From Verrucomicrobiota bacterium (GTDB lineage: Bacteria; Verrucomicrobiota; Verrucomicrobiia; Chthoniobacterales; JAFAMB01), in assembly GCA_019246215.1 (NCBI GenBank), contig JAFAQT010000391.1, forward strand, positions 1 through 33,138: a stretch of 33,138 nucleotides of DNA, written 5' to 3'. Positions 4,878 to 27,808 of this stretch are shown here, in pieces; the first letter of the stretch is position 1; every line of letters starts with the position of its first letter. Under the pieces are notes generated by a model, which was not told where the DNA came from, did no database searches, and was given only the letters and a program-made list of their open reading frames with translations. The translations under genes were made by a program, and so were the position numbers.

Positions 4878-6013
4878 ATTTTTGTATTCAAGGAATCGGA
4901 GCTGTAACCCCTTTGGGCCCTACTGGCCTGGAAACGTGGTTGGCACTCTGCGACGGCCAGCATGCGCCCAGAACGCGCTTCGGAAAAGCGCTCGCCGATC
5001 GAAATTATTTCGCCTGCCCGGTGCCTGGGAAGTTTTTGGGGGGCGCTGCGCGTCAGCCTCGTCTGCGCCGATCCGGCACAATCTCACTGCTTGCAGCGTT
5101 GGCGGGATCTGACGCGTTTGCCGATGCCGGACTGAAACTGGACAGCGGCTTAGGAGATCGAATCGCTGTAGTGTTCGCGATCTGCTCAGGAGGCATCAAT
5201 TACACGCGTCGTTTTTATCACGAGATCGCGACGCAAGGAGCAAATTGCGCAAGCCCGTTGTTGTTCCCCGAAACCGTGTACAATGCTGCGGCGAGCCATC
5301 TGGCAGCTCTGCTCGGCGTCGACGGACAGAGTTATACGCTGGTCGGAGATTCCTCCGTCGGCTTGGCGGCGATTCATTTCGCCACGGAACTCCTGACAAT
5401 GCAACCGCGGCTCGACCGCTGTCTCGTGGTAGGCACCGAGGAAGTAGACTGGCTCTTAGCCGACGCGTTCGCCAGCTGGCGTATGGCGACGAATCGGGAT
5501 CAGTTCGAAGTGTACGGCCGAACAAACGGCACGATTTTTGGAGAAGGGGCTGCCGCGGTCCTGGTAGGACGAACGGGATCCTTAATGATCGCCAAATGCT
5601 CGGCAGGCCTGCCGTTTCATTCACTGAGCGAGACTGAATCCGCCGCGAAGGAGATGTTTTGTCACCTGCCGAGGGAAGGAGCGTTTGAAATGATTGTAAG
5701 TAGCGCCAACGGCACGTTCGCAGACGAAGTGGAGGGAAAGGTGTTCAGCGAATTCTATCCCGCCGTCCCGGTTTATGCTCCTAAACCGGCGTTAGGCGAG
5801 GCACTCGGTGCGGGCGCTCTGCTCCAGGTTGCCGTCGCTGGTTGGGCGCTTCGTCACCAACGGTTGCCGGGAACTCTGAGGGCCGGCTGCAAGCTCCTCA
5901 GTGTAAACCGGGAAACCCGGTCCTTACCGTCTTCCCAGGCCTTGGTGACATGCGTCGGGTTCAATCACCAGGTGAACGCGTTGAAGTTGTGCCTGGTGCA
6001 ATCCGCGTATTGA
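4874..6013 (+). CDS. Catalytically degenerate ketosynthase (KS-beta / chain-length-factor-like)
   Basis: Thiolase-fold similarity to the upstream KS, but the Cys, His and His positions read DSSVG, SANGT and GEALGAG. ATGA overlap with the upstream KS. Confidence 0.82.
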   Translation: MNFCIQGIGAVTPLGPTGLETWLALCDGQHAPRTRFGKALADRNYFACPVPGKFLGGAARQPRLRRSGTISLLAALAGSDAFADAGLKLDSGLGDRIAVVFAICSGGINYTRRFYHEIATQGANCASPLLFPETVYNAAASHLAALLGVDGQSYTLVGDSSVGLAAIHFATELLTMQPRLDRCLVVGTEEVDWLLADAFASWRMATNRDQFEVYGRTNGTIFGEGAAAVLVGRTGSLMIAKCSAGLPFHSLSETESAAKEMFCHLPREGAFEMIVSSANGTFADEVEGKVFSEFYPAVPVYAPKPALGEALGAGALLQVAVAGWALRHQRLPGTLRAGCKLLSVNRETRSLPSSQALVTCVGFNHQVNALKLCLVQSAY

Positions 6014-6046
6014 TCCTGCCCGGCGTTTAAGTAATAGTGGTTTTCT

Positions 6047-6526
6047 ATGCCAAGTAAGCTGGCGGCGGCGATGCTTATCATGGCTACTGTAGTGCTGTTG
6101 CTTGCTGGATGCGAGACCACCCAGGACCAATTTACCCAGTCTCAGGTTCTTGTTAACCAAGCCATCGCGAATGAGCCTGCAGGGAATTATTTTATTGGAA
6201 GACGATTTTACCGAAAAAATTATTTCTTCTGGGGATATATCCGGCAGCCGCGCCAACCGTGGAGGAGCGCTAAGCTTGTCATGTTGAACGAGCAGAAAAT
6301 GCTTGCTCCCGATCGCCAGGCAAATAAGCCCGGTTTCGACAGCAATTTTGAATATCGACTCCAGGGGTACTTGTCAGGGCAAACCGTTTATGAGCCCGCT
6401 TCGAACGGCTTTTATCCAGAATTTGTGTTAACGGGATACAAACTCATATCGAATCACCCTCCTCAGATTTTCCGGGAGCCGAAGGCGATGGACCCGGACC
6501 GACTTTATATCGACAAACCTCAGTAG
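6047..6526 (+). CDS. Hypothetical lipoprotein
   Basis: Signal peptide with lipobox LLLAGC; 159 aa; no recognised family. Confidence 0.75.
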   Translation: MPSKLAAAMLIMATVVLLLAGCETTQDQFTQSQVLVNQAIANEPAGNYFIGRRFYRKNYFFWGYIRQPRQPWRSAKLVMLNEQKMLAPDRQANKPGFDSNFEYRLQGYLSGQTVYEPASNGFYPEFVLTGYKLISNHPPQIFREPKAMDPDRLYIDKPQ

Positions 6527-6561
6527 ATTAAGCGATTCTCGAGAGAGTAGTTTTGAGGAGT

Positions 6562-9500
6562 ATGGGCGAAAGAGACAAGTTCGAGCACTTCGTTATCATG
6601 CGACACGCGGACGGTTCGTTGTGGGAACTCGGCCGGGGCGCCATGGGCGTCACGTACAAAGCCTTCGACACCAATCTGCGGTCAGACGTCGCGCTGAAGG
6701 TCATCAACTCGCAATTTCTGAACAGTGAGACGGCGCGTCAGCGTTTTCTGAGGGAAGCCAGAGCGGCCGCCAGTCTCCGGCATCCGAACGTGGCAACAGT
6801 TTTTCATCTCGGCAACTCTGAAGGAGGGTTCTACTATGCGATGGAGTATGTGGAGGGTGAGACTGTTGATCGACGCGTCCAGCGAGAAGGTCCTTTGGTG
6901 CCGGAACTCGCCCTTAGAATCGTACGACAGGTCTCTCGTGCGCTGATTGCGGCCGACCGTCAGAAACTGGTCCATCGCGATATCAAACCGTCGAATGTGA
7001 TGCTCGTCGCTGACGATGAAGAAGATCACCTGCTGGTCAAGGTGATCGACTTCGGCCTGGCGAAATCGCTCGTTGCCGCAGCGGACCAGTCTTTGACTGT
7101 GTCGATGGGAGGGTTTGTGGGCACCCCGCACTTCGCTAGCCCGGAGCAGTTGGAAGAAAAGGAGATCGATATTCGCTCAGATATCTATTCCCTTGGTGCG
7201 ACACTCTGGTTTACTCTCACCGGCCGTCCTCCGTTTTCTGGTTCGATGATCAGTGTGATCAATCAACACCTGAGCCAACCACTCCCGTCCGACGTTCTCG
7301 CTAGTCTTCATCCGCAGATTGCGGATCTGCTGGAAAGGATGCTCGCAAAGCAGGCCGAGGACCGATTTCAATCGCCGTCGGAGCTCAAGCGGCACATCGA
7401 CGAGATTCTGAGTGACTTGAAGGGGGAATCTCCAACCCTTGCCCCGATGGGAAGGTCCCCCCGTGCTGACGCGCATTTCCCTGGAATAGGGACAGTGGGA
7501 GGGACCAGTAGTTCCGGCTTCGCCACCGGCCAACTGATTCGGGACCGATACCAGATTTTAGGGCAATCATCATTCGATAACAACCTGTTTAGGGCGAAAG
7601 ATCTGCATTCCAATCGCATCGTAACCCTGCGTCCGCTCCCGATGGCGCTCCGATATGAGAAGGAGCGATTCACTCATCTGAGGCAGGAGATCGAACGGCT
7701 TCGAACAATGCATCATCCGAACCTTCTCGAAGTGTTCGGGCTCGAGGCCGACGATCGGTGCTTATTCTTAGTCAGCGAATGGATTAAAGGGTTTTCACTC
7801 CAGGAACTTTTGCGCGTTCGTCGGATCCTCGGGTGGGAGGAAACGCTGCGGATCGCCAAGCCGTTGGCCAAAGTTCTGGACTATGCTGCGGAGCGCGAAC
7901 TGCTGACAACGGGGTTATCATTGCGACACGTTTTCGTCGAAATGCCGCATCTTCCGGAGCCCGTCGAACTTCAGCGAACACCGGTTACGACCTGGCCGCC
8001 GTTTATCGTGAAAGTGGACGCCTTGAGCCTCGGTCAGAATACGCAGAAGAACCTGGCTGAGCCGGCTCAAACGATCGTTGACTCAGGCGGACTCGAATTT
8101 TCCGCAACCCACGTTCAGCAGCTTGCCTGCGTCATCCACGAGCTGTTGGGCGGGGTCAGAATCGGCTCTTCCACAGGCGCATACACTTCCCGCTTGAACC
8201 CGGTGGCCAAATTATCTGAGGAAGGAAATATCATTTTGCGCCGCGGAGCGACTGAGCCGACGCGCTTTACAATCGCGAACGATTTCCTGGCAGAGCTGGA
8301 GGCTGCTGAGGTTCCCAACGAGTCCCTGGTGGCGGTCCCCCCGTCGACTGGCAAGGGCGAGCAATCGGGATTCCCGCGAACGCCAGGTAACGCTCCTTCT
8401 CTTTCGGAACCGCTAGAGGATAACCAGCCGAAAACGTCTCCGGTTTTTCTACGCATACTGCTGACAGTGGTCGGCATGTTTTTAGTCTGCGCAATTGGCG
8501 CAGTCATCGGAGCAAATTTCTTTCTTCGTAAACCTGAGGGACCGCCACCCGTTTCACTGATGGGCAGTGTGACTCTGACAAGCAAACCGGAAGGCGCAAC
8601 GGTGAAATACAACGGGGTAGAAATTGGCCACACGCCGCTAACCTCTTATCCGTTGCCAAGAGGCAAACATGTGCTCGATCTCAGCAGGGCGGGTTATCAA
8701 AGCCGAGCGATTGAGGTGGAAATCATCCAGGGAAGTCTGAACGATCTCGGACTTATCCCCTTGATGCGTGAAGTCGGTCAACTATCGCTTAAGTCGGAAC
8801 CGACGAATCTCCCGATCGAGGTCGTGGATTCGGCACAGAAATCGAGTTTTGGGAACACTCCCATGACCCTCGACAACCTGCCTGTCGGGAATTACACAGT
8901 ACGGATCAAGCGTTCTGGCTGGCCGGACTATGTCCAACAGGTCAACGTGCAATCGAATGCTCCGATTGCCGTCGAGCACACCTTCAAAGGAGTGAATGTG
9001 ACCCTGAAAAGCGATCCCGTCGGCGCGACGATCTATGTGGGTCCTACCGAACTTGGCAAGGCGCCGCTCACGATTGAGCTCCCGCCCGAGCCAGTGGAAC
9101 TGGTGTCTCGAATTGGGGCGCTGGCACCGGTTTCCCGCGAAGTGGTGCCCGATCCAAATGGAAGCACGGTGGTCGAGTTCAAGCATGAATACGGGATCAT
9201 TTCGCTGGCCAGCGATCGCGAAGACGCTGAAGTCACCGTCGGGGGAATCGATCTCGGAAAATTGCCGCTCGAGGGAATTTTCCCGCCTGGGCAACACCAG
9301 ATCGTCGTTCGAGCCCCGGGCGTCCCCAATCAGACGCGGATAGCCGATGTTGCAGCGGGTCAGCGCCTTGCGATGGAAATTAATTTCAGTGTGGCGTCCC
9401 GTGCCGCGGCCAGCATGACCTCAAAGCGGCGTCCATCCGAAGAGGATTCTGGCCTGGATCAAACCTCGAAGCAAGGTCATCAGCGAACCCCGCGACCTGA

Positions 9501-13365: not shown

Positions 13366-16206
13366 CTATTTCGGGGACGTGACATCAGTGAGGTTGTGAA
13401 ATACCGCAAAAGGGAATGCATTGAGACTTTTGAGCGGGAGCGTATCCAATCCGGCCTTAATTGTGCGGCCGGTTAACTGATCCACCATTGCCGGTAAAGC
13501 CTTATCAACAAGGAGTTCAGTCTCTTTCCAATCACACCCGCATTCGGCCGTTCCGAGACGTGCCGTGAAGCGCGGCACAATCACCAGGATCATTTGCCTG
13601 TCCAGTTCTCGAGAGAACGCGACACAGCACTCAGCAAATTCACCATTGGCGTAGAATGAGGAATAGCTACCGGTTTCGAATAGGGAAGGCGCCTGCTGCC
13701 GAAGGCGCAGAAGCCGCGAGGTAACCGAGATTTTAATGCGACTATCCTGCCATGTCTTAAAAAGATTCTCGGCGTTTTCATTTTGAATCTTCTCAAGAAG
13801 CTGTGTGCGCAAGGCGAAATCTACGGGGCGGCGATTGTCGGGGTCGACCAGGCTGAAGTCCCATAATTCAGTGCCTTGATAAATATCCGGTACGCCTGGG
13901 ACAGTGAACTTAAGAATTGCTTGAGTGAGCGAATTTAACATTCCATGCCAGGCGATCTTGGCTGCGGTTGGCTCAAATTTGGACCGGAAACCGTGGTCTG
14001 GTCTGAGCAAATGGGCAATAAATTGCCTTACGGCTTCTTCCCAATCTTCGTTTGGCTGAATCCAGCTGCTATTGACCTTGGCTTCTTTGATGGCCTTGAG
14101 CATGTAGCGTTGAATCCGATCCACATACTCTGCGTTGACTTCTTCCATCGAAAGAGGCCAAGTGCCCAAGAGAGTTTGATAGGCCAGATATTCTTCATTC
14201 GCACTGGGGGCTAAGTCGCCTTCTAAATTTTTCTTCCAGACGGCATTCAAATCACGCCATTCATAGATCCACTTTTGCCACTCGTCTGGCATTTCACTTA
14301 GCACGGCCATTCTGGCTCGAGTGTCTTCGCTGCGTTTTGTGTCATGTGTGGTAGAAGCGAGCAGGGAAAGCGGTCTCTCCGCCAATCGTGCACGATTTCT
14401 TTCGTGAAAGCGCTCCAGGCTGATCCCGAACTGTTGTGGGTTTCCTCCGACCTCGTTGAGTGCGGCCAGGCGATTAAAAATATAGAAGGCGGTGTCTTCC
14501 AATCCCTTAGCCATGATTGGGCCGGTGCATTGTTGAAATTTCGAAACAAACTCCAGCCGCAATCGCTGAGCCTCGCCGTCGGAGTCGTCGAGTTTTTCGA
14601 GAAGGAGAATATCTCGCAGAAAATCGAAAATAGAAGTGTCGATTGAAGCATTACGGCGTTTTGCCGCCCGCACGGCGCGAAGGATGACCTGCCGATCCGC
14701 CTCTGAAACTCCATTCTCAGCGCTGATGTAGGTCCGATAGACCGGAAAACATGCGACCAACTCGCGGACCACAGTCCTTAAGGAATCCAGCGTGAAGTCC
14801 CGATGTAATCGGTCCCCTTCAGAGACGTCGCTCAACATATGGCCAAGCGACTCGATATCGCTGGCCAGAGAAACATCCATAACAAGCTTCTTTTTTTCGT
14901 AGATTAGCGATTCAAAGTGAACATGGCGTTCGATGAACTCTCGGTAGATCTTTGAGAACTTTTCTCCGTTCCTAGAATCCACCAGGAGCTGCGTGATTTC
15001 CGCGGTGAAATCATAGCCGGTCGTTCCGTAAACCGGCCAGTCGCTCCGTAGCTTTTCGTTATCGGAAAAAATTTTTTCTACGATCAGATAAAGGCCGAGC
15101 CCCGGCTCGGCAGAATCGCCATCGACCATTTCAGCGAACCGGCGTTGCAATGAGATAAGATATCGTTTCGGATCCCGTAGACCATCGACGTGATCGATGC
15201 GCAAACCCGTAATGCTGCGCTTTTCCAGCAGTTCGAAAAGGAACTTGTGGATCGTGTCGAAAACAATCGGATTTTCAACCCGAATCGCAGCGAGGTCGTT
15301 GACGTCAAAAAAGCGCCTGTAGTTAATCTCTTCGGCGGCAACCTTCCAGTAGCTCAAGCGGTAGGCCTGCGCGTCGAGGAGTCGGTCAAGTTGATCGAAG
15401 GAATGGGGATTACCAACCTGACCCTCGATATGTCTGATCGCGAGTTGAATTGCTTCCTCAACTTGCGGGCACTCTCTGCAGAGCCGGAAGATGCGCCGCT
15501 TGACGACTTCCTTCTCTCTGGCCCTTTCCCGAATCTTCTCCTCGTCCGTGTTTGTCCGCGGCGGGAGATATTCCAGCGCCGTAAGAATGCTCTCAAGGTC
15601 AAGAAACATCTCCTCATCCGAATATTGGCCTAACTTCTCCAGAGCGATTCGAAGCAAAAAATGGTACGTGCGCGGGTTCAGCGGAAAAACCCAGTCAAAA
15701 TAGTTCAGGTAAAAGGCTCCTTCCTTGAATTGGAGATGAAATTCGCCACGCTCAAGAACTCTGCCGTACTGGTCGCCGAGAACCGGAAGCAAAACTTTGT
15801 TGCGAAGTGCCTCTTTAAGCGGATCCCAGTCGATGTCGAAGAATTGAGCAAACCTTGAGCTGGGACCGTTCTCCAGGACGTCCATCCACCACTCGTTCTG
15901 TGGATCAATGATTCCCATGTGGTTGGGAACAAAATCGGCAACTTGACCCATGTCGTGCTCCTTCAGGCAGTCGACCATGATGTCGAAATCTTCTCGCGAA
16001 CCGATCGGCGGATGCAATTCGTTGTGATTGCTGACGTCGTACCCGTGATCGCTCTCTGGGCGCGAGCGAAAGAACGGTGAACTGTAGATATCGCTGATCC
16101 CGAGTTTCTTAAGGTAAGGGATAATTCCAGTCGCGTCTTTGAACCGGAAATGTCGATTGAATTGCAAGCGATAGGTTGATATTGGTATGCGGGGTGCGGG
16201 TGCCAT
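13366..16206 (-). CDS. treY: Malto-oligosyltrehalose synthase
   Basis: [107 protein letters not shown]. Confidence 0.96.
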
Positions 16207-16250
16207 TCCTCATTTCTCCTCTCACTGGTCGCAATTGTGCGGGGTGCGCC

Positions 16251-18113
16251 TTATGTATTCTGGTCGTCCTCTTCGCAGAACACGATCAACTCCGGTCCGG
16301 TCAGCACGATTTTGTTTCCGGAGCGGTCAAAGCGTGCCTTTTCTTTCCCACCGTACATCGGATCGTTCGTTGAAATCACGAATTCCCAGCTCCGACCTTT
16401 TGCGAGCCGCAGCAGGTCATTGTTTAGCTCTATAATACTCTCAGTTTCCAAAATTTGGGCCACCACAAGGATGTCGCCGGCGCTTTTCCGTCGATAGCGA
16501 ATAGCAATCGCGCTGCGCGAAACTCGATCGACTTGCCAGTGACCGCGGCGACGGTCCTCTAGGTTGGCTTGGCGAAAGCGCAGAAAATCCCGGTAAAGCT
16601 GAAGCGTCCCCCGATGAGGTTGCCGCTCCAGTTCTGTCCAGTCCAATCTTGAGGATGCGAATGTGGTCAGCGCTTGGGGATCAGGGATGAGGGCGCGATT
16701 TGCCGGATCCCGAAAATCCAAAAAATCAGCAAATTCTTTGCGTCGTCCTTCCGTCACGCCTTTGCCCAATTCATCGTGATGGTCCGTGAAATAAAGAAAA
16801 GGGCTTGAGGCTGCCCATTCCTGGCCCATGAAAAACATCGGTGTGTATGGGTCGAGGATCAGAACCGCCGATGCAGCCCGGTAGGCTGCGGGTGCGATCG
16901 AGTGATTCAGCCGCTCGCCGAACGCGCGGTTGCCGACCTGGTCGTGGTTCGAGATGCAGTGGACAAAATGCTCGGGTTCAAGGTCTGCGCCTCGGGTGCC
17001 GCGCGGAATCCCATCTTTCTGTAACTCACCGGTAAACAACCAGCCTTCCCGCACGGTTTTCACCAACTCCTCCATTGTACCTTTGAAGTAGCCCATGTAT
17101 CCCTCGTTTTCGTTAGTCATTTGAACGCGAACCACATGATGGAAGTCATCGGCCCACACTGCGTCGCATCCGTATCCGCCCAGATCGCGCGGAAGTACCA
17201 GCTTGCGGTCGTTTCTGGGATCCTCGCAAATCGCCAAGGCGCCAAGTGCCTGAATTCGTTCAGTGATCTCCTGAATGAGGTGCTTTGGAGAATCGTCCGG
17301 GATGGCATGTGTCGCGTCCAGCCGAAAGCCGTCGACGTGGAATTCTTTGATCCAATAGAGAGGATTTTCCGCGAAATGTTGCCGGACAGGTGCTGCGTCG
17401 GGCCCATCTAAATTGAACGCTGAGCCCCAAGGGGTGTCATGCGCAGCGTTGAAATAGCGATCGGAATAGACACCCATGTAGTTTCCATCGGGTCCGAGAT
17501 GGTTGTAGACCACATCGAGGATGACAGCCAGACCCGCCTCATGCGCGGCATTTACGAGGGTCCTTAGGTCATCCGGTTTTCCGTACGCTCTAGACGGGGC
17601 ATAAAGGGACACGCAGTCATAGCCCCAGTTCCTGTTGCCGGCGAAGTCAGCAATCGGCATTAGTTCAATGACATTCACTCCGATTCCTTTCAAGTGTTCG
17701 AACCGCTCGGCAATCGCCGTGAACGTGCCCTCCTGGGTGAAAGTGCCGACGTGCAACTCGTAAATGATCAATTCATGAAGACCGGGCGCCTTCCACTCAG
17801 AATCCGTCCAAGGAAATGAATGTCCATCGATGACTTGCGAAGGTCCGTGGACGCCGTACGGTTGAAATCGGGACGCAAGATCAGGAACCAACACACCGTC
17901 GAGCCGAAACTTGTACAGGGTTCCGGGAGAAGATAAGTAGTCGACGGCACTGTAATAGCCGGTCGCTTCCCGTTCCATAGGGAGTTCTCGCGCAACGCTC
18001 TGAGGATCGCCGAACAGGGAGACGGAAACATTTTTCTTTTGTGTTGCCCAAGTCCGAAACGACACGCCATATCCCTCGAGTTCTGCGCCTTGAGAGACCA
18101 GTCTATTTTTCAT
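16251..18113 (-). CDS. treZ: Malto-oligosyltrehalose trehalohydrolase
   Basis: GH13 with N-terminal early-set domain; IYELHVGTFTQEGTF, VNVIELMPIADFAGNRNWGYDCVSLYAPSRAYG, VDGFRLDATHAI, QEWAASSPFLYFTDHHDELG. Confidence 0.95.
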   Translation of the reverse strand: MKNRLVSQGAELEGYGVSFRTWATQKKNVSVSLFGDPQSVARELPMEREATGYYSAVDYLSSPGTLYKFRLDGVLVPDLASRFQPYGVHGPSQVIDGHSFPWTDSEWKAPGLHELIIYELHVGTFTQEGTFTAIAERFEHLKGIGVNVIELMPIADFAGNRNWGYDCVSLYAPSRAYGKPDDLRTLVNAAHEAGLAVILDVVYNHLGPDGNYMGVYSDRYFNAAHDTPWGSAFNLDGPDAAPVRQHFAENPLYWIKEFHVDGFRLDATHAIPDDSPKHLIQEITERIQALGALAICEDPRNDRKLVLPRDLGGYGCDAVWADDFHHVVRVQMTNENEGYMGYFKGTMEELVKTVREGWLFTGELQKDGIPRGTRGADLEPEHFVHCISNHDQVGNRAFGERLNHSIAPAAYRAASAVLILDPYTPMFFMGQEWAASSPFLYFTDHHDELGKGVTEGRRKEFADFLDFRDPANRALIPDPQALTTFASSRLDWTELERQPHRGTLQLYRDFLRFRQANLEDRRRGHWQVDRVSRSAIAIRYRRKSAGDILVVAQILETESIIELNNDLLRLAKGRSWEFVISTNDPMYGGKEKARFDRSGNKIVLTGPELIVFCEEDDQNT

Positions 18114-20340
18114 CGCTTGTGCTTTCTGTGGTTTGAGTTGGAACTTTGGTGGGCGATTTTCCGATTTTGGTTGTCCATGACGCTTCCCGGGCGAACCGCT
18201 CTTCTCCTGCGGAAAGTCTTAACAGGAAGAGACTTCTATCGGTTAATTCCACTTCGTCGCCCGCCGAGATAATCTTCTGATTTCTAACAAAGCCGCGTTC
18301 ATTGTTAGTATCTATTATCAGTTCCCACCGGATTTCTTCGCGGCCGGGGAGGATAAATGTGAGTGATTCGTAGTGTGCGTTGCATAGCAAAAGGAAAGTA
18401 TCATCCCGGATTGATTCTCCTTTTGAATCGCGGACGTCGTTAGTCGAACCACTGACCAGCACGCCAAGACATTTCGCAAACCCGTTTTTCCAATCCTGTT
18501 CGTTCATCTCCGCGCCACTCGGGGTGAACCACACGATATCTCTCACTTCCAAACCGCGAACCCTTCTTACCTTGAAATATTTTGGACGTCGCAGGACCGG
18601 GTGTTCTTTCCGGAACCGGATCAATTTTTTCGTGAAATCAAATAAATCCTTTGTCTGGTCCTCCCAATCCCAGTGGAACCAATTGAGCTCATTGTCCTGA
18701 CAATAGGTATTGTTATTTCCAAGCTGTGTTCGGCCGAATTCGTCTCCTGCGTTGAGCATTGGGACGCCTTGCGAAAGCAATAAGGTTGCCAGGAAATTTC
18801 GACGCTGGCGCCTGCGAAGTCGATTCACTTCGGGATCATCTGTCGGGCCCTCCGCGCCACTATTCCAAGAGTTGTTATTGTTGTCGCCATCCCGATTCCC
18901 TTCGCCGTTCGCCTCATTGTGTTTGTCGTTGTAGGAAACCAGGTCGTTCAGAGTGAATCCGTCGTGCGAAGTAACAAAGTTGATACTGGCGTACGGTCTC
19001 TTGCCGTGGTGCTCGTAGAGATCCGGGCTACCCGTCAGTCGATAAGCGAACTCGGCGATCGTATCGTCATCTCCTTTCCAATAACGGCGGATGCAATCCC
19101 GGTATTTACCGTTCCACTCGGACCAGGGTGCCGGAAAGTTACCGACCATGTAGCCTCCCTCACCGACATCCCAGGGCTCTGCGATCAGCTTTACTTGAGA
19201 CAAAATTGGATCCTGCAGCAAGATGTCAAAAAAGGTCGCGCTTCGATCCACAAAATGCTCTTCACGGCCGAGCGTCGACGCCAGATCAAAACGAAATCCG
19301 TCCACGCGCATTTCGGTCACCCAATAGCGAAGACTATCTAAAATGAGCTGCAGAACCCTTGGGTTCAGCGTGTTTGGCGTATTGCCGCATCCCGTGTAAT
19401 CCATGTAAAAGCGTCGATCATTTGCCACCAGCCGGTAGTACGCTGCGTTATCGACACTTTTGAACGAGATTGTCGGGCCCAAATGATTCCCCTCCGCAGT
19501 ATGATTGTACACAACGTCGATGATGACTTCGAGCCCTGCCCGGTGCAATTCCCGCACCATTTCTTTGAATTCGGTGACCTGGCCGCCTTGGTTCCCCTTA
19601 CTTGAATAGCTGCTCTCAGGAGCAAAAAATCCGATTGAATTGTATCCCCAGTAGTTGCTGAGGCCTCGGTCTACCAGAAAACCATCGTCCACATGTTCGT
19701 GCACCGGAAGAAGCTCTATTGCGGTTACTCCCAGTTCTTTGAAATATTTGATCGCTGCAGGCGAGCCCAGCGCAGCGTACGTTCCTCGGATCTCCTCCGG
19801 TATCTTTTCCCAGAGTTTGCTGAACCCGACGACATGAACTTCATAGATGATTGACTGGTGCAAAGGAGTGTTTGGGCGCTGGTCTCTGCCCCAGGCAAAG
19901 GAGGTGTCGACCACGACTGATTTTGGGATCTTGCCGGCGTTATCCCTGTAATCGCGTTTCAGATCTTCGCCGGGGTCACCCAGTGGGTAGGCGAACATTT
20001 CAGGACCCCATTGAATCTTGCCTGCGATCGCTTTGGCGTATGGATCTATGAGTACCTTGGAAGCGTTGAATCGGTTACCGTGGTGAGGCTCATAGGGCCC
20101 ATAGACCCTGTACCCGTACAGCTGACCGGGCCGGAGCTCAGGCAGAAAGACGTGCCAGACATGATCGGTGCATTCGGTCATCCGAACTCTGATTGTCTCA
20201 TGGTCTGAATCTGGGCGATCGAACAAACAGAGGTCGACGCCTGTGCAACTTTCTGAATAGACAGCGAAGTTCACGCCCTCAGCGGTCCAAGTAGCGCCCA
20301 TTGGATAGGGTGTTCCGGTCCATACCCTTACTTTGTTCAT
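18103..20340 (-). CDS. glgX: Glycogen debranching enzyme (GlgX/TreX, isoamylase-type GH13)
   Basis: YGYRVYGPYEPHHGNRFNASKVLIDPYAKA, YNHTAEGNHLGPTISF, VDGFRFDLASTLGR, GDEFGRTQLGNNNTYCQDNELNW. Overlaps treZ by 11 bp. Confidence 0.95.
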   Translation of the reverse strand: MNKVRVWTGTPYPMGATWTAEGVNFAVYSESCTGVDLCLFDRPDSDHETIRVRMTECTDHVWHVFLPELRPGQLYGYRVYGPYEPHHGNRFNASKVLIDPYAKAIAGKIQWGPEMFAYPLGDPGEDLKRDYRDNAGKIPKSVVVDTSFAWGRDQRPNTPLHQSIIYEVHVVGFSKLWEKIPEEIRGTYAALGSPAAIKYFKELGVTAIELLPVHEHVDDGFLVDRGLSNYWGYNSIGFFAPESSYSSKGNQGGQVTEFKEMVRELHRAGLEVIIDVVYNHTAEGNHLGPTISFKSVDNAAYYRLVANDRRFYMDYTGCGNTPNTLNPRVLQLILDSLRYWVTEMRVDGFRFDLASTLGREEHFVDRSATFFDILLQDPILSQVKLIAEPWDVGEGGYMVGNFPAPWSEWNGKYRDCIRRYWKGDDDTIAEFAYRLTGSPDLYEHHGKRPYASINFVTSHDGFTLNDLVSYNDKHNEANGEGNRDGDNNNNSWNSGAEGPTDDPEVNRLRRRQRRNFLATLLLSQGVPMLNAGDEFGRTQLGNNNTYCQDNELNWFHWDWEDQTKDLFDFTKKLIRFRKEHPVLRRPKYFKVRRVRGLEVRDIVWFTPSGAEMNEQDWKNGFAKCLGVLVSGSTNDVRDSKGESIRDDTFLLLCNAHYESLTFILPGREEIRWELIIDTNNERGFVRNQKIISAGDEVELTDRSLFLLRLSAGEERFAREASWTTKIGKSPTKVPTQTTESTSDEK

Positions 20341-20511: not shown

Positions 20512-21714
20512 ATGAAGAAGCGAGTTTTGATCATGTCAACCAGCGCAGGAACCGGACACGTTCGAGCTGGGGAGGCACTAACCAAAGTATTCGAGGAGCA
20601 CCCCTTGGTAAGCGAGGTTCTGCACAGCGATGCGCTTCGTTTTACGAACAAGCTGTTCCGAGATTTTTATTCGAAACTTTACACTCACCTCGTGAAAGAC
20701 GCACCGGACTTCCTGGGATGGTGGTACAAACAGAGCGACGAACCATGGAAAACGGACGGGATGCGTCTAATGCTGGATCGTCTTAACACAGGGCCCCTGG
20801 TAAAATTCATCCGGCAATTCAATCCACACATCACGGTCTGCACGCACTTCATGCCTGCTGGCATTATTTCGCATCTTATCGCAAAAAATCTCTTGGATGC
20901 CCATCTGTCGATCGTAGTAACAGATCTGGACTTTCACGCGATGTGGTTGTCGCGGGTGTTTCATCGTTATTTCGTGGCTATCGAGGAAACCAAAGTTCAT
21001 CTCGAAGAATTGGGGTTGCCGAAAGAGAGAATCACGGTTTCGGGAATTCCGATCGATCCGGAGTTCATCACTCCCATCGATCGCGTTGCAACGCGGTTTC
21101 ACTATGGACTGCACCCAACGCGTCCAACGCTATTGCTGTCGGCCGGGGCGCTTGGCGTCGGACCCACGGAGTTTGTTGTCGAACGGCTTAGATCTCTACG
21201 ATCCAAAGCCCAGACTATCGTTGTTTGCGGCCGAAACTCAGAAGCCAGGGATCGTGTTCTCGAAATGGTGGGCGAGGATAACGAACACATCAAGGTATTC
21301 GGCTACACCGCTCGCATGGCGGATTTGATGAAGATTGCGGATTTGTTTATCGGGAAGCCGGGTGGATTGACCACAGCCGAGGCGCTAGCGTGCGGCTTGC
21401 CTATGGTGATTGTCAGCCCGATTCCCGGTCAGGAAGAGCGCAACAGCGATCATCTTCTAGAGGAAGGCGTGGCGGTGAAATGCAACGAGATGACGACCTT
21501 TCCTTATAAAATTGACTCATTGCTGGATGACCCGCTTCGGCTTGAGCAGATGCGTCGCAGAGCCTTCGCGATGAGCCGCCCGGAAGCAGCAAAGACCATT
21601 GTAGAGACTCTTGTGGCTGACGAGGTATCCGCCCTTGCAGTGTCGGACGATGAGGCGGAAGCGATCACGATCGCCGCAAGCAAGGAGCGAGACAATAAAC
21701 GCGGTAACCAATGA
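20512..21714 (+). CDS. MGDG synthase / processive diacylglycerol glucosyltransferase-like glycosyltransferase (GT28)
   Basis: RVLIMSTSAGTGHVRAGEAL; VVTDLDFHAMWL; VSGIPIDPEF; FIGKPGGLTTAEALACGLPMVIVSPIPGQEERNSDHLLEEGVAV. Confidence 0.88.
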   Translation: MKKRVLIMSTSAGTGHVRAGEALTKVFEEHPLVSEVLHSDALRFTNKLFRDFYSKLYTHLVKDAPDFLGWWYKQSDEPWKTDGMRLMLDRLNTGPLVKFIRQFNPHITVCTHFMPAGIISHLIAKNLLDAHLSIVVTDLDFHAMWLSRVFHRYFVAIEETKVHLEELGLPKERITVSGIPIDPEFITPIDRVATRFHYGLHPTRPTLLLSAGALGVGPTEFVVERLRSLRSKAQTIVVCGRNSEARDRVLEMVGEDNEHIKVFGYTARMADLMKIADLFIGKPGGLTTAEALACGLPMVIVSPIPGQEERNSDHLLEEGVAVKCNEMTTFPYKIDSLLDDPLRLEQMRRRAFAMSRPEAAKTIVETLVADEVSALAVSDDEAEAITIAASKERDNKRGNQ

Positions 21715-23264
21715 GCGAGTTCTTTTGGGGGGTAGCAACTTCCGCCTATCAGTCCGAAGGAGGTTATAACGGGCCCGGACAACCTCAGACGAACTGGGCA
21801 TCCGGAGAGCGACGGGGAGACGTTGCACGATCCGGCCGCGGCGCCGACTTTTGGAATCGTTATGCGGAGGATTTTGCGCGTTGCCGGGAGCTTGGTCTGA
21901 ATGCATTCCGCCTTGGGATCGAATGGAGCCGGGTACAACCGACCTATGTTGACCGGATAGGGCTGCCTCCGCCGTTCGATTATAAGGCGCTCGATCACTA
22001 CATCGATATGCTGGTGCAGTGCCATCAGAATGGACTTGAGCCCATCGTGACCCTTCACCATTTTGTACATCCTTCCTGGCTCGGGACAGACCCGTGGATG
22101 GAGGCGGACGTGAGCCAGCATTTCTGCCGCTACGCACATGAATCGATACTGCATATAAACCGCGCTTTAACTGATCGGCACGGCCTCCCGCCGATCCGCT
22201 ATTATATCACGATCAACGAGCCGAATATGTTCGTGTTGAACACGTATTTGGGCACACAGTTTCCTGGGCGCGGTCGAAAAACGCATGGTTTGCGTACATT
22301 GTTGGAGGTTTATCGCCAGATCCTGATCACACACGTCCGCGCGTACAATTTGATCCATCGAATTTACGTGGATCAAGGCTGGCCAGAACCTTCGATCTCG
22401 CTGAACAATTACTGCAGCGATCTCTACTGGTCGGATAAGATTCTGCTCGATCTCGTTTCGGTCAGGGAGCGCGGCATACGCCTTGAGGCGCTTCCTCACT
22501 ACATTTTCGAGAAAATTCGCCAGTTCGAAGAAGCGTTCTCCGCAGCAAAGATTCCGTTGAAAAAGGATATTCCCTATTTCTTTGGAGCGTGTTCAAAAAA
22601 AATTAGCAATTGGTTGGGTTACAAAACATTCATTCCCGAATGTTTCGCTCCTCTGATTGAAGAACTCTACGCGGCCGAGAGGGAATCGGCCTTTGACTAC
22701 GTCGGCCTGGACTATTACGATCCGTTCGCAGCGCACATGTTCCGAATCCCAGTCTGGTGGGATCACGAGTTCAAGAATAAATCTCTTCGGAGCTGGCTGA
22801 TGAAAAGCGTGACAAGCAAGTGGTGGGACTGGCGCGTCTTACCGGACGGAATGCGATTTTTCTGCGACTATTACAGTAGAGAATTTGGTAATCGTCCGGT
22901 CCTGATTGTTGAAAACGGCATGGCAGTGCGGCGTCGGTTCGACAACAAGAACACTTTGCGAAGGGATCGGATGACCCGCAGCCATTTTTTGCGTGTGCAT
23001 GTCGAAGAGATCATGAACATCATACGATCCGATGTCCCGTTGATCGGATACCTGCATTGGTCGTTGTTCGACAACTATGAGTGGGGAACTTTTACACCCA
23101 GGTTCGGCCTTTACTCGATCAATTACGCCAAGGACAATAACCGGCTAGTGGAAGACCATCTTGGCGACCACCCGTCGGCTACATATGCGCAGTTGATCCA
23201 ACGCTCCCGCGAGCAAACGAGTGCATTCGCGGAAACTCGAGAGGCCAGAGAACCCAGCAGCTAG
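21711..23264 (+). CDS. Glycoside hydrolase family 1 protein
   Basis: FFWGVATSAYQSEGG; acid/base motif TINEPN; nucleophile motif VLIVENGMA; HWSLFDNYEWGTFTPRFGLYSINY. ATGA overlap with the upstream GT. Confidence 0.92.
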   Translation: MSEFFWGVATSAYQSEGGYNGPGQPQTNWASGERRGDVARSGRGADFWNRYAEDFARCRELGLNAFRLGIEWSRVQPTYVDRIGLPPPFDYKALDHYIDMLVQCHQNGLEPIVTLHHFVHPSWLGTDPWMEADVSQHFCRYAHESILHINRALTDRHGLPPIRYYITINEPNMFVLNTYLGTQFPGRGRKTHGLRTLLEVYRQILITHVRAYNLIHRIYVDQGWPEPSISLNNYCSDLYWSDKILLDLVSVRERGIRLEALPHYIFEKIRQFEEAFSAAKIPLKKDIPYFFGACSKKISNWLGYKTFIPECFAPLIEELYAAERESAFDYVGLDYYDPFAAHMFRIPVWWDHEFKNKSLRSWLMKSVTSKWWDWRVLPDGMRFFCDYYSREFGNRPVLIVENGMAVRRRFDNKNTLRRDRMTRSHFLRVHVEEIMNIIRSDVPLIGYLHWSLFDNYEWGTFTPRFGLYSINYAKDNNRLVEDHLGDHPSATYAQLIQRSREQTSAFAETREAREPSS

Positions 23265-23393: not shown

Positions 23394-24242
23394 CTATGCT
23401 GCCTCTGATTGAGGTTCTGCAACGGCGAATTTCCTCAGTGATTTGCCCAACACGAATTGCTGCTGGAAGGCGCTTATTTGTCGGACCTCGAGCCCGCCCG
23501 ATTCGAGGATGGCTGCACAGGCGCCGAAATAGGGCACGAAACTTCCCGTATTGATAATGACTCGCGGAGCAACTCTCCAGATACCTGGACAATGCGTGTG
23601 CCCGACGAGAACAAACCTTGCCTCCGGCCGGAAGACGCGCGCGAGATCGGCGGCCCGCCCGGGGACCTCACACCAAGCTTTGATGATCATCAAAGGGCGC
23701 CAAGGCGGCCAGCAGTTACGAATCAACAAGCGAAACCCGGATGAACGCCCGCGGGTCAGCGGCGGCTCAAGCATCTGCAGTTCAATCGACGTCCGTTTGG
23801 AGGCCAAAAGGCGTTTCTCGAAATCGGCGTATCCGTCCGGGCCAAGCCCGTCCAGAATCTGGCGATGTTTGTTGCGGTAGTGTCTGGCGGCGCGGCTCCA
23901 CGGCGCTACGTCCAGAAAAAGAATATCTCCGTGGGTCACTAGGACTGCGCCATTGGCCAGGTCAAGGTGATTGGTGCTTGAAACCGTCGGATCATGATTC
24001 CCATTGACGAAAAATGCCTTGCGTCCTGCCTGATGACAGATTCGCGCCAAATCCGCGGCGAGCTTACGGCCAATCCGCCGGTCCTCCGAATTGCGCATTT
24101 CTGATGTGTCACCGTTGAATATTACCGAACCCGGCCCATCTAAGATCGGCGCGAGCTGCTCCGGATGCTTTATCCGTGAAGCGCGATGGCCAAGGTGCAG
24201 GTCTGAGAGGACCAGGATCGGCTCCGTTGGCGTCAGGTTCAT
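23394..24242 (-). CDS. Metallophosphoesterase (calcineurin-like)
   Basis: LSDLHLG, FNGDTSE, VNGNHD, VTHGD, LVGHTHCPG motifs. Confidence 0.9.
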   Translation of the reverse strand: MNLTPTEPILVLSDLHLGHRASRIKHPEQLAPILDGPGSVIFNGDTSEMRNSEDRRIGRKLAADLARICHQAGRKAFFVNGNHDPTVSSTNHLDLANGAVLVTHGDILFLDVAPWSRAARHYRNKHRQILDGLGPDGYADFEKRLLASKRTSIELQMLEPPLTRGRSSGFRLLIRNCWPPWRPLMIIKAWCEVPGRAADLARVFRPEARFVLVGHTHCPGIWRVAPRVIINTGSFVPYFGACAAILESGGLEVRQISAFQQQFVLGKSLRKFAVAEPQSEAA

Positions 24243-26269: not shown

Positions 26270-27808
26270 TTAGAGCGCACGCATAAACGCCACTAAATCG
26301 GATTTTTCCTGCTTCGTCAGATTCAACTGAAGGATCAGATTGAAAAACTCAACCGTGTCTTCCAGGGTCAAGCATCTTCCGTCATGCATGTAGGGCGGAC
26401 TTTCCTTTATGCCACGCAGAGTGAACGTTTTGATAGGACCAGTCGGTGGCTCGTTCACAAACTTTTCCGATCCGAGATCATGCATCTGATGATCGAGATA
26501 GGTCGGCGGTTGATGGCACTCCGCACATTGGCCCTTCCCAAAGAACACTTTCTGTCCTCGCATCTCACTTTCACTCGCCTTGTCAGGATCCAATTTGCCT
26601 TCTGCATTCAGCTTTGGCGCCGGCGGGAAATCAAACATGTTCTGCATCTGGGCCATGTGGCTGACCTGGATGCGATCCAAAATGTTCATCCCTTTCTTAA
26701 TCGCATGGATTTCATCGCCATTGAAATACGCGGTGCGCTGTTCGAACTCGGTAAAATCCTCGACTGACCTCAGGCTGCGCTTCGAACCATGAATCTGCTG
26801 GTTGAACAATCCTCGGAGGCTAACCGTATCCAGACGCAACCTTCGCTGCTCTGGACGAATATCCGGGTTAAGGTGGAATTGCCCAGTGGTGTGCCCATTT
26901 ACATGGCAATCCAAACACGTCACTCCCAAGCTCGGATTAACGCTCTTTCGATCATCCGTGGGGTTGAATTCTTCCTGCGGAAAAGGTGTAAGAAGTAAGC
27001 GCAAACCATCAAGCTGCACCGGAGTAAGAATATCTTTAAATAGTCGATAATAGTTGTTGATACTCACCACTTCACCGCGTGAGACGTCTCCCAGCTCGGG
27101 CCTGCTTTGAAGGAAAATTGCCGGCGGAAATTCCGGAAGAAATGCTTCCGGTATATCGAAATCTACGTCAAAACGCTGCAGTCGGGGAAACATCTCGATC
27201 TGGACTTGCGGAAACACTTGGCCACCCGGCTGCTGCTTAGGATGCGGCAATGAAGGATAAGGAAATATCCCGGCCTTTTTTATTTCCTCGGGTGACATTT
27301 TAGCCAGGGATTCCCAAGATACCCCATTGCGAAGTTTGGCGGTCGGCCCAACCGCCAGGGGTTTGCCACGGAACATTTTGGTTTCGGGATCAAGGTGCGG
27401 CGTCAAGTCATAACGGCTTTCCAGCAATTTCCTTTGCGTCTCCATGACCTTCGACTTCGCTTCCATATCTGCCTGCATGATTTCGTCGAAAGTTTGCATC
27501 GGTTTTTTGGCATCCAGAGGGTCACGGTAGAAGTCGAATCCTTGGGTTTGGCCTTGTTCAGGCTGATCCTGGAACGCTGGAGACGACGGGTCTGCATTGC
27601 TGCTCTTAAAAACATTAGATTTGTCGTGTTCATTCTTCGTTTGTTCCGGACGACTCGCTGGGATCTCACGCGGCGTCTGACTATCCTGGATTACATCGTA
27701 TGCCCGATGTGATTGCTCCTCCGATTGCGTCCGAAGAGTTGTCATCCAGACCCCGAGGAGGACAGCTGCCGGAAAAATTCGATATCCACAACGAGAACTC
27801 ATTTTCAT
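26270..27808 (-). CDS. Di-haem cytochrome c peroxidase / MauG-like protein
   Basis: Two haem motifs, CLDCH and CAECH; PPTGPIKTFTLRGIKESPPYMHDGRCLTLEDTVEFFN is typical of the family; N-terminal signal-like segment. Confidence 0.85.
   Translation of the reverse strand: MKMSSRCGYRIFPAAVLLGVWMTTLRTQSEEQSHRAYDVIQDSQTPREIPASRPEQTKNEHDKSNVFKSSNADPSSPAFQDQPEQGQTQGFDFYRDPLDAKKPMQTFDEIMQADMEAKSKVMETQRKLLESRYDLTPHLDPETKMFRGKPLAVGPTAKLRNGVSWESLAKMSPEEIKKAGIFPYPSLPHPKQQPGGQVFPQVQIEMFPRLQRFDVDFDIPEAFLPEFPPAIFLQSRPELGDVSRGEVVSINNYYRLFKDILTPVQLDGLRLLLTPFPQEEFNPTDDRKSVNPSLGVTCLDCHVNGHTTGQFHLNPDIRPEQRRLRLDTVSLRGLFNQQIHGSKRSLRSVEDFTEFEQRTAYFNGDEIHAIKKGMNILDRIQVSHMAQMQNMFDFPPAPKLNAEGKLDPDKASESEMRGQKVFFGKGQCAECHQPPTYLDHQMHDLGSEKFVNEPPTGPIKTFTLRGIKESPPYMHDGRCLTLEDTVEFFNLILQLNLTKQEKSDLVAFMRAL

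Follow-up and report, generated by a model that had tools for sequence, protein, structure and literature searches.

A conserved two-gene unit of a GT28 glycosyltransferase and a divergent GH1 protein that probably makes and reworks a membrane glycolipid in Verrucomicrobiota and Methylococcales

The window, i.e. the whole stretch of 33,138 nucleotides that was analyzed, is one contig (C16) of a verrucomicrobial genome of 3.8 Mb in 443 contigs. It carries a gene for a glycosyltransferase (GT) of family GT28 followed by a gene for a glycoside hydrolase of family 1 (GH1), as summarized in Table 1. The original prediction had described the gene order, the ATGA overlap, the TINEPN and VENG motifs, and a divergent trehalose operon. 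Both reading frames were located as it had described them, and GlgX, TreZ, and TreY are indeed encoded upstream on the opposite strand. Two further genes of the window were noted in passing. A metallophosphoesterase gene (23394-24242), considered for a PlcP-like role, adjoins the pair only in close relatives, and a 512-aa protein (26270-27808, minus strand) had no Pfam match and matched MauG/di-heme peroxidase models weakly.

Table 1. Features of the GT28-GH1 locus, in window positions
Feature	Position	Strand	Basis
GT28 glycosyltransferase gene, 400 aa, UgtP/MGDG-synthase type, first of the two-gene unit	20512..21714	+	ORF, Pfam/NCBIfam/PDB matches, conserved partner
MGDG_synth N-terminal domain, PF06925, GT residues 16-181	20557..21054	+	Pfam match
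ATGA overlap, translational-coupling arrangement (GH1 start ATG 21711-21713, GT stop TGA 21712-21714)	21711..21714	+	Sequence
GH1 gene, 517 aa, divergent clade T1	21711..23264	+	Pfam, trees, AlphaFold2 model
TINEPN motif, acid/base Glu170	22209..22226	+	Alignment
T1-specific lengthened region, residues 250-325, between beta5 and beta6	22458..22685	+	Alignment, model
Asp334 codon; Asp in 36/36 T1 proteins	22710..22712	+	Alignment
VENG motif, nucleophile Glu401	22908..22919	+	Alignment
GlgX-TreZ-TreY, divergent, upstream of the pair	13366-20340	minus	Pfam/model matches

The resemblance of the GT to MGDG synthase and UgtP was borne out by several models and structures. In Pfam, the protein matched MGDG_synth (PF06925, 1e-21) and Glyco_tran_28_C (8e-12), and among solved structures UgtP (7e-38) was a better match than plant MGD1 (1e-25). 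The UgtP-type NCBIfam model was matched over nearly its full length with 218 bits, which lies below its equivalog cut-off of 500; MurG was matched weakly. The genome encodes a second PF06925 protein (G000:C270, L098:1336-3441) with a C-terminal PHP-type phosphoesterase region. Such a PHP-fused GT adjoins a T1 GH1 divergently at loci L053 and L055, which is not the case in the genome of the window. L053 and L055 are very similar, yet the metagenome-assembled genome of one bears the title 'Methylacidiphilum sp. Phi' and that of the other 'Akkermansia muciniphila'; one or both of these titles are probably incorrect.

An acceptor other than diacylglycerol has to be considered for this GT, i.e. another lipid or an isoprenoid, an LPS or a carotenoid intermediate, in which case the GH1 protein would trim or edit the resulting glycoconjugate. 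MurG is also a member of GT28, and the score against the UgtP model is well under the equivalog cut-off. Moreover, genes of the kdsB, pyrG, kdsA, and LptA types, encoding CMP-Kdo-synthetase-, CTP synthase-, Kdo8P/DAHP-synthase-, and LptA-type proteins, precede the pair in one family (L130-L132). These surroundings are an envelope-lipid setting, but they are confined to this single family, and PF06925 as well as the best solved relatives, UgtP and MGD1, stand for diacylglycerol glycosyltransferases. We consider a different acceptor unlikely. The same three loci carry a gene of the metallo-beta-lactamase fold downstream of the pair.

The GH1 protein matched PF00232 with an E-value of 2e-54; the match is in two parts, with an atypical middle region between them. 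Its AlphaFold2 model (pTM 0.88, pLDDT 82) shows the (beta/alpha)8 fold by which family GH1 is recognized together with the NEP and ENG glutamates, and the top PDB matches listed by Foldseek for this model were GH1 structures (E ~1e-19). As had been proposed, the enzyme is catalytically complete, with both E170 and E401 in place. Subsite -1 is mostly kept in T1 (Q14, H117, N169, Y336, W450, E457, and W458), including the Glu/Trp that GH1 enzymes have for a non-phosphorylated hexose, and Asn172, the +1-side residue in TINEPN, is invariant across T1. Two positions deviate. Asp334 corresponds to Asn in the other GH1 proteins compared (Asn293 in Thermotoga maritima, Asn282 in Tt-beta-gly), and Phe118 replaces the Trp of classical GH1 enzymes. 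In Tt-beta-gly, a Thermus beta-glycosidase, the exchanges N282T and W120C raised transfer relative to hydrolysis (PMC4030847, PMC4803828). In HoBGLA, the exchange N294T at the position equivalent to N282 did not raise transfer (PMC4803828). With the literature thus mixed, Asp334 was rejected as proof of transglycosylation, and by analogy Asp334 and Phe118 give no more than a hint of transfer activity.

Residues 250-325, in which three helices are predicted (258-278, 287-306, and 309-321), form the least conserved part of the T1 core (mean conservation 0.45, against 0.62-0.73 elsewhere). Analysis of the hydrophobic moment gave no clear signal of a membrane-binding signature in these helices, whose amphipathicity is not strong and whose net charge is small. 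The idea of a membrane-binding helix in this region was dropped. Hydropathy revealed neither a signal peptide nor a transmembrane segment, and the protein is predicted from its sequence to be cytosolic. Some relatives are organized differently. At L012 (454-2961, minus strand), the T1 frame is extended at its C-terminal end by a GH26-like part to a total of 836 aa, and a separate, convergent ORF of GH26-like appearance is found at L016 (72-1343, plus strand). An in-frame TAG near codon 235 interrupts the GH1 gene at L034 (8001-9506) and L005, which are the same genome region, indicating decay or an assembly error. On an Embleya plasmid (L202, NZ_CP108785.1, match 6001-7170), the GH1 frame continues into an alpha/beta-hydrolase-like stretch with HGGG and GGASAGG motifs (843 aa), and no GT was found nearby by tblastn.

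Verrucomicrobiota and Methylococcales contain relatives of the window GH1, mostly with 42-82% identity. In the majority of these, the GT gene lies ahead of the GH1 gene on the same strand, overlapping it or at most ~150 nt apart; overlaps or gaps of a few nucleotides, like the ATGA of the window, prevail, and the other neighbors vary. A survey of 289 Verrucomicrobiota genomes, with a GT threshold of E<=1e-60, detected T1 in 10 and the GT in 44 genomes. The GT was present in nine of the ten T1 genomes and was adjacent to T1 in all nine. Most genomes in which T1 has no adjacent GT nevertheless encode the GT at another site; T1 occurs without a close GT in genomes G131 and G037. The co-occurrence of T1 or T2 (the second GH1 lineage described below) with the GT among the 289 genomes gave a hypergeometric p of ~1e-18, which is too optimistic because the genomes were treated as independent and their kinship was ignored. 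The arrangement is not due to chance, as the adjacency in 9 of 10 T1 genomes and in Methylococcales demonstrates, and the survey of co-occurrence suggested along with the original prediction came out strongly in favor of conserved adjacency. At one locus (G204:C1:967950-969064), the GT gene adjoining a T1 GH1 is split into two frames by a frameshift or decay.

Among 299 Pseudomonadota genomes, a close GT was present in four, including the Methylococcaceae genome used as a center, and no GH1 was found within ~5 kb of the close GT in the other three. The Methylococcales sequences are nested inside Verrucomicrobiota in the GH1 tree as well as in the GT tree. Thus, GT and GH1 were most likely transferred horizontally to Methylococcales as a unit. 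In four Methylococcales loci (L043, L045, L046, and L056), an ORF of about 150 aa (151 aa) lies downstream of the GH1 gene; the one tested, from L043, contains a DUF3617 domain.

A second GH1 lineage, T2 (427-476 aa, ~26% identical to T1), is found next to members of the same GT clade in further families of Verrucomicrobiota (L105-L111, L113-L115, L192, and L193). A profile search detected T2 in 12 of the 289 genomes, all of which also contain the GT, and 12 of 13 T2 copies are adjacent to it. Because T2 was first found through its adjacency to the GT, only the absence of further, GT-less T2 genomes from the profile search counts as independent evidence. In the GT tree, the GH1-linked GTs fall into one clade (99), with the exception of that at L121, where the adjacent GH1 gene is convergent and belongs to neither T1 nor T2. 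The T1-linked GTs form a clade (99) inside this group, and seven rows of the group are without an adjacent GH1. None of the 289 genomes contains T1 and T2 together, which suggests that the two are interchangeable partners of one GT clade.

The possibility that the GH1 protein is an ordinary soluble beta-glucosidase for oligosaccharides, placed beside the GT by accident, accords with its annotation-level likeness to BGL models and GH1 crystal structures. The conservation of adjacency across two phyla and two GH1 lineages argues against it. Furthermore, the genome of the window has a separate classical GH1 (L002), and in the careful tree T1 formed a clade of its own (100/100) on a stem of 1.7 substitutions outside the classical glucosidases. 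The last result also answers the phylogenetic check proposed for the locus, since T1 is not nested among classical beta-glucosidases. We regard an ordinary soluble glucosidase as highly improbable.

The best PDB match of T2 was BGPh of Pyrococcus horikoshii (1vff, 275 bits). Membrane-associated GH1 enzymes of the BGPh type are recognized by a hydrophobic mound that lies close to the active site and is encircled by basic residues. BGPh is described as a membrane-associated GH1 enzyme that prefers long alkyl glucosides, and steryl glucosides in biodiesel are cleaved by its relative from Thermococcus litoralis (PMC8790579, PMC4687101, PMC1934363). T1 was not located near BGPh in the careful tree. 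As T1 is not the lineage closest to BGPh or SFR2, the membrane-related evidence from T2 reaches T1 only via the shared GT partner.

The original prediction had regarded the pair as a possible bacterial counterpart of plant MGD1 and SFR2. In its strict form, this would make the window GH1 homologous in function and descent to the galactolipid:galactolipid transglycosylase that stabilizes membranes on freezing or desiccation. The Arabidopsis SFR2 sequence used for comparison (622 aa) was reconstructed rather than taken from a database record; it matches GH1 and carries the four published residues S90, K136, A550, and L580 (PMC11155703). A LacS sequence reconstructed in the same way was identical to PDB 1uwq. 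The SFR2 sequence shared 22% identity with the window GH1. Upon profile comparison with hhalign, SFR2 scored 349 with T2, 310 with classical BGL, and 205 with T1, and 256, 218, and 188 with three other GH1 sets. The lead of T2 is not specific to SFR2, because LacS and BGPh also scored highest with T2. In the careful tree, SFR2, which sits on a long branch, grouped with LacS (99/89) and then with T2 (84/87), and T1 was placed outside. AU tests on the quick tree rejected none of the groupings SFR2+T1 (p 0.50), SFR2+T2 (0.60), and T1+T2 (0.44). T1 is a very divergent GH1 clade and among the least SFR2-like of the sets compared, and T2, to judge from these sequence comparisons, is more SFR2-like and BGPh-like than the window GH1.

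The anatomy of the window protein was compared as well. SFR2 is held in the membrane by an N-terminal anchor. Loop A and the C-terminal region of SFR2 are reported to be needed for its transferase activity (PMC11155703, PMC11525325). In sequence, model, and hydropathy, the window GH1 lacked an SFR2-type N-terminal hydrophobic anchor, loop A, and a C-terminal extension; in the model, it begins at the first beta strand and ends after the last helix. What it shares with SFR2 is the GH1 core with both catalytic glutamates.

Trehalose genes were likewise part of the case for SFR2-like function, since their divergent transcription from the pair had been taken to fit an osmotic, desiccation, or freezing role. 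Among the loci compared, they lie beside the pair in three close relatives only and thus outside the conserved unit. The freezing argument falls, and a link to trehalose was rejected as a general feature of the pair. Taken together, the partnership with an MGD1-family GT, the unrejected SFR2+T1 clade, and the trehalose genes of the closest relatives speak for a true SFR2 counterpart; the profile scores, the grouping of SFR2 with LacS and T2, the missing SFR2-specific parts, and the unconserved trehalose linkage speak against it, and the comparison rests on a reconstructed SFR2 sequence in which four published residues match. Direct orthology was rejected as the best reading on the profile scores and the careful tree, the AU value of 0.50 notwithstanding, and a true SFR2 counterpart appears very unlikely. 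Specific kinship of the window GH1 with SFR2 is not supported by the sequences; functional analogy is possible.

The two genes are best explained as a self-contained, horizontally mobile unit with which its bacterial carriers probably synthesize and remodel a glycolipid of the membrane. Family membership, the coupling of the genes, and the analogy of T2 with BGPh suggest that the GT uses diacylglycerol and that the GH1 protein uses the GT product. We assign a probability of about 0.58 to the reading that the GT makes a glycosyl-diacylglycerol and that the GH1 protein acts on this product at the cytosolic membrane face. On the cytosolic side of the inner membrane, the GT28 enzyme would use a UDP-sugar to attach a hexose to diacylglycerol, yielding a beta-glycosyl-diacylglycerol. 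The translationally coupled GH1 protein, as a retaining beta-glycosidase, would attack this beta-linked head group, likewise from the cytosolic side, and could either remove the sugar, which would amount to turnover with regeneration of diacylglycerol, or pass it to another glycolipid (2 hexosyl-diacylglycerol -> dihexosyl-diacylglycerol + diacylglycerol), which is the type of reaction catalyzed by plant SFR2. In other members of the phylum, a T2 GH1 would take the place of T1 beside the same GT clade. Hydrolysis and transfer of the GT product seem about evenly probable.

Confined to the hydrolytic option, the GH1 protein would be a plain beta-glucosidase of the membrane surface that serves homeostasis by breaking down the GT product and does not transfer sugars, a sub-case of the reading preferred here. 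It has every classical catalytic residue, and lipid-glycoside hydrolases of the same fold exist, namely BGPh and the cytosolic glucosylceramidase of humans (2e9l), which held rank 8 among the Foldseek matches of the window model. The unaltered transfer of HoBGLA N294T also means that the Asn-to-Asp exchange in T1 is no proof of transfer (PMC4803828). On the other hand, a hydrolase tightly coupled to its own synthase would create a futile cycle unless regulated, which also counts against T1 acting on the product of its partner, and Asp334 and Phe118 occupy sites at which N282T and W120C favored transfer in Tt-beta-gly. Catabolism as the sole function is possible rather than probable. The most far-reaching version of the preferred reading would combine a GT28 diacylglycerol glycosyltransferase and a GH1 glycolipid:glycolipid transglycosylase in a remodeling module, with two GH1 lineages recruited to one GT clade and passage from Verrucomicrobiota to methanotrophs. 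Such a module would be a convergent counterpart of MGD1/SFR2, and T2 might be near the prokaryotic source of SFR2. This version is speculative and rather doubtful.

In annotations, GH1 enzymes nearly always appear as beta-glucosidases that degrade sugars. A GH1 clade that moves together with a synthase of membrane glycolipids would point to a new in vivo role for unassigned members of the family and would explain a two-gene unit of hard-to-study soil Verrucomicrobia and methanotrophs. Since one GT clade is combined with two GH1 lineages, the system offers a testable setting for the step from glycosidase to lipid-active or transferring enzyme, for which plant SFR2 has been the best-known case to date. 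Direct tests are feasible because the cultured Chthoniobacter flavus Ellin428 (L039, NZ_ABVL01000006.1) carries the pair. Neither a GT28-GH1 pair nor a bacterial SFR2 was found described in the non-subscription papers searched.

Several known systems resemble the pair in part. Bacterial UgtP, a processive diacylglycerol beta-glucosyltransferase (PDB 9wde), is of the same family as the window GT, which matches its model near full length, and both have a PxPGQE-type motif in the C-domain; the window GT scores under the UgtP equivalog cut-off, and we know of no GH1 partner described for UgtP. BGPh shares the GH1 fold with T1 and is the best solved relative of T2, yet it is remote from T1 and, unlike the bacterial pair, archaeal, with no GT partner mentioned in the accounts consulted. 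Human cytosolic beta-glucosidase (GBA3/KLrP) is a GH1 enzyme that acts on glycolipid; unlike the bacterial GH1, it is an animal enzyme not coupled to a GT. The PlcP-Agt lipid-remodeling operon (e.g. of Methylosinus) is likewise a two-gene unit, shifts head groups to glycolipids, and occurs in methanotrophs. In contrast to the GT28-GH1 pair, it combines a phospholipase with a different GT and has no glycoside hydrolase; PlcP is reported to be absent from verrucomicrobial methanotrophs (PMC9239053). Plant MGD1 and SFR2 provide, like the bacterial pair, a PF06925/GT28 synthase plus an enzyme of the GH1 fold with both glutamates. The window GH1 differs from SFR2 in belonging to another, very divergent clade and in lacking the anchor, loop A, and the C-terminal region, and coupling of the two activities in a two-gene unit is a feature of the bacterial pair.
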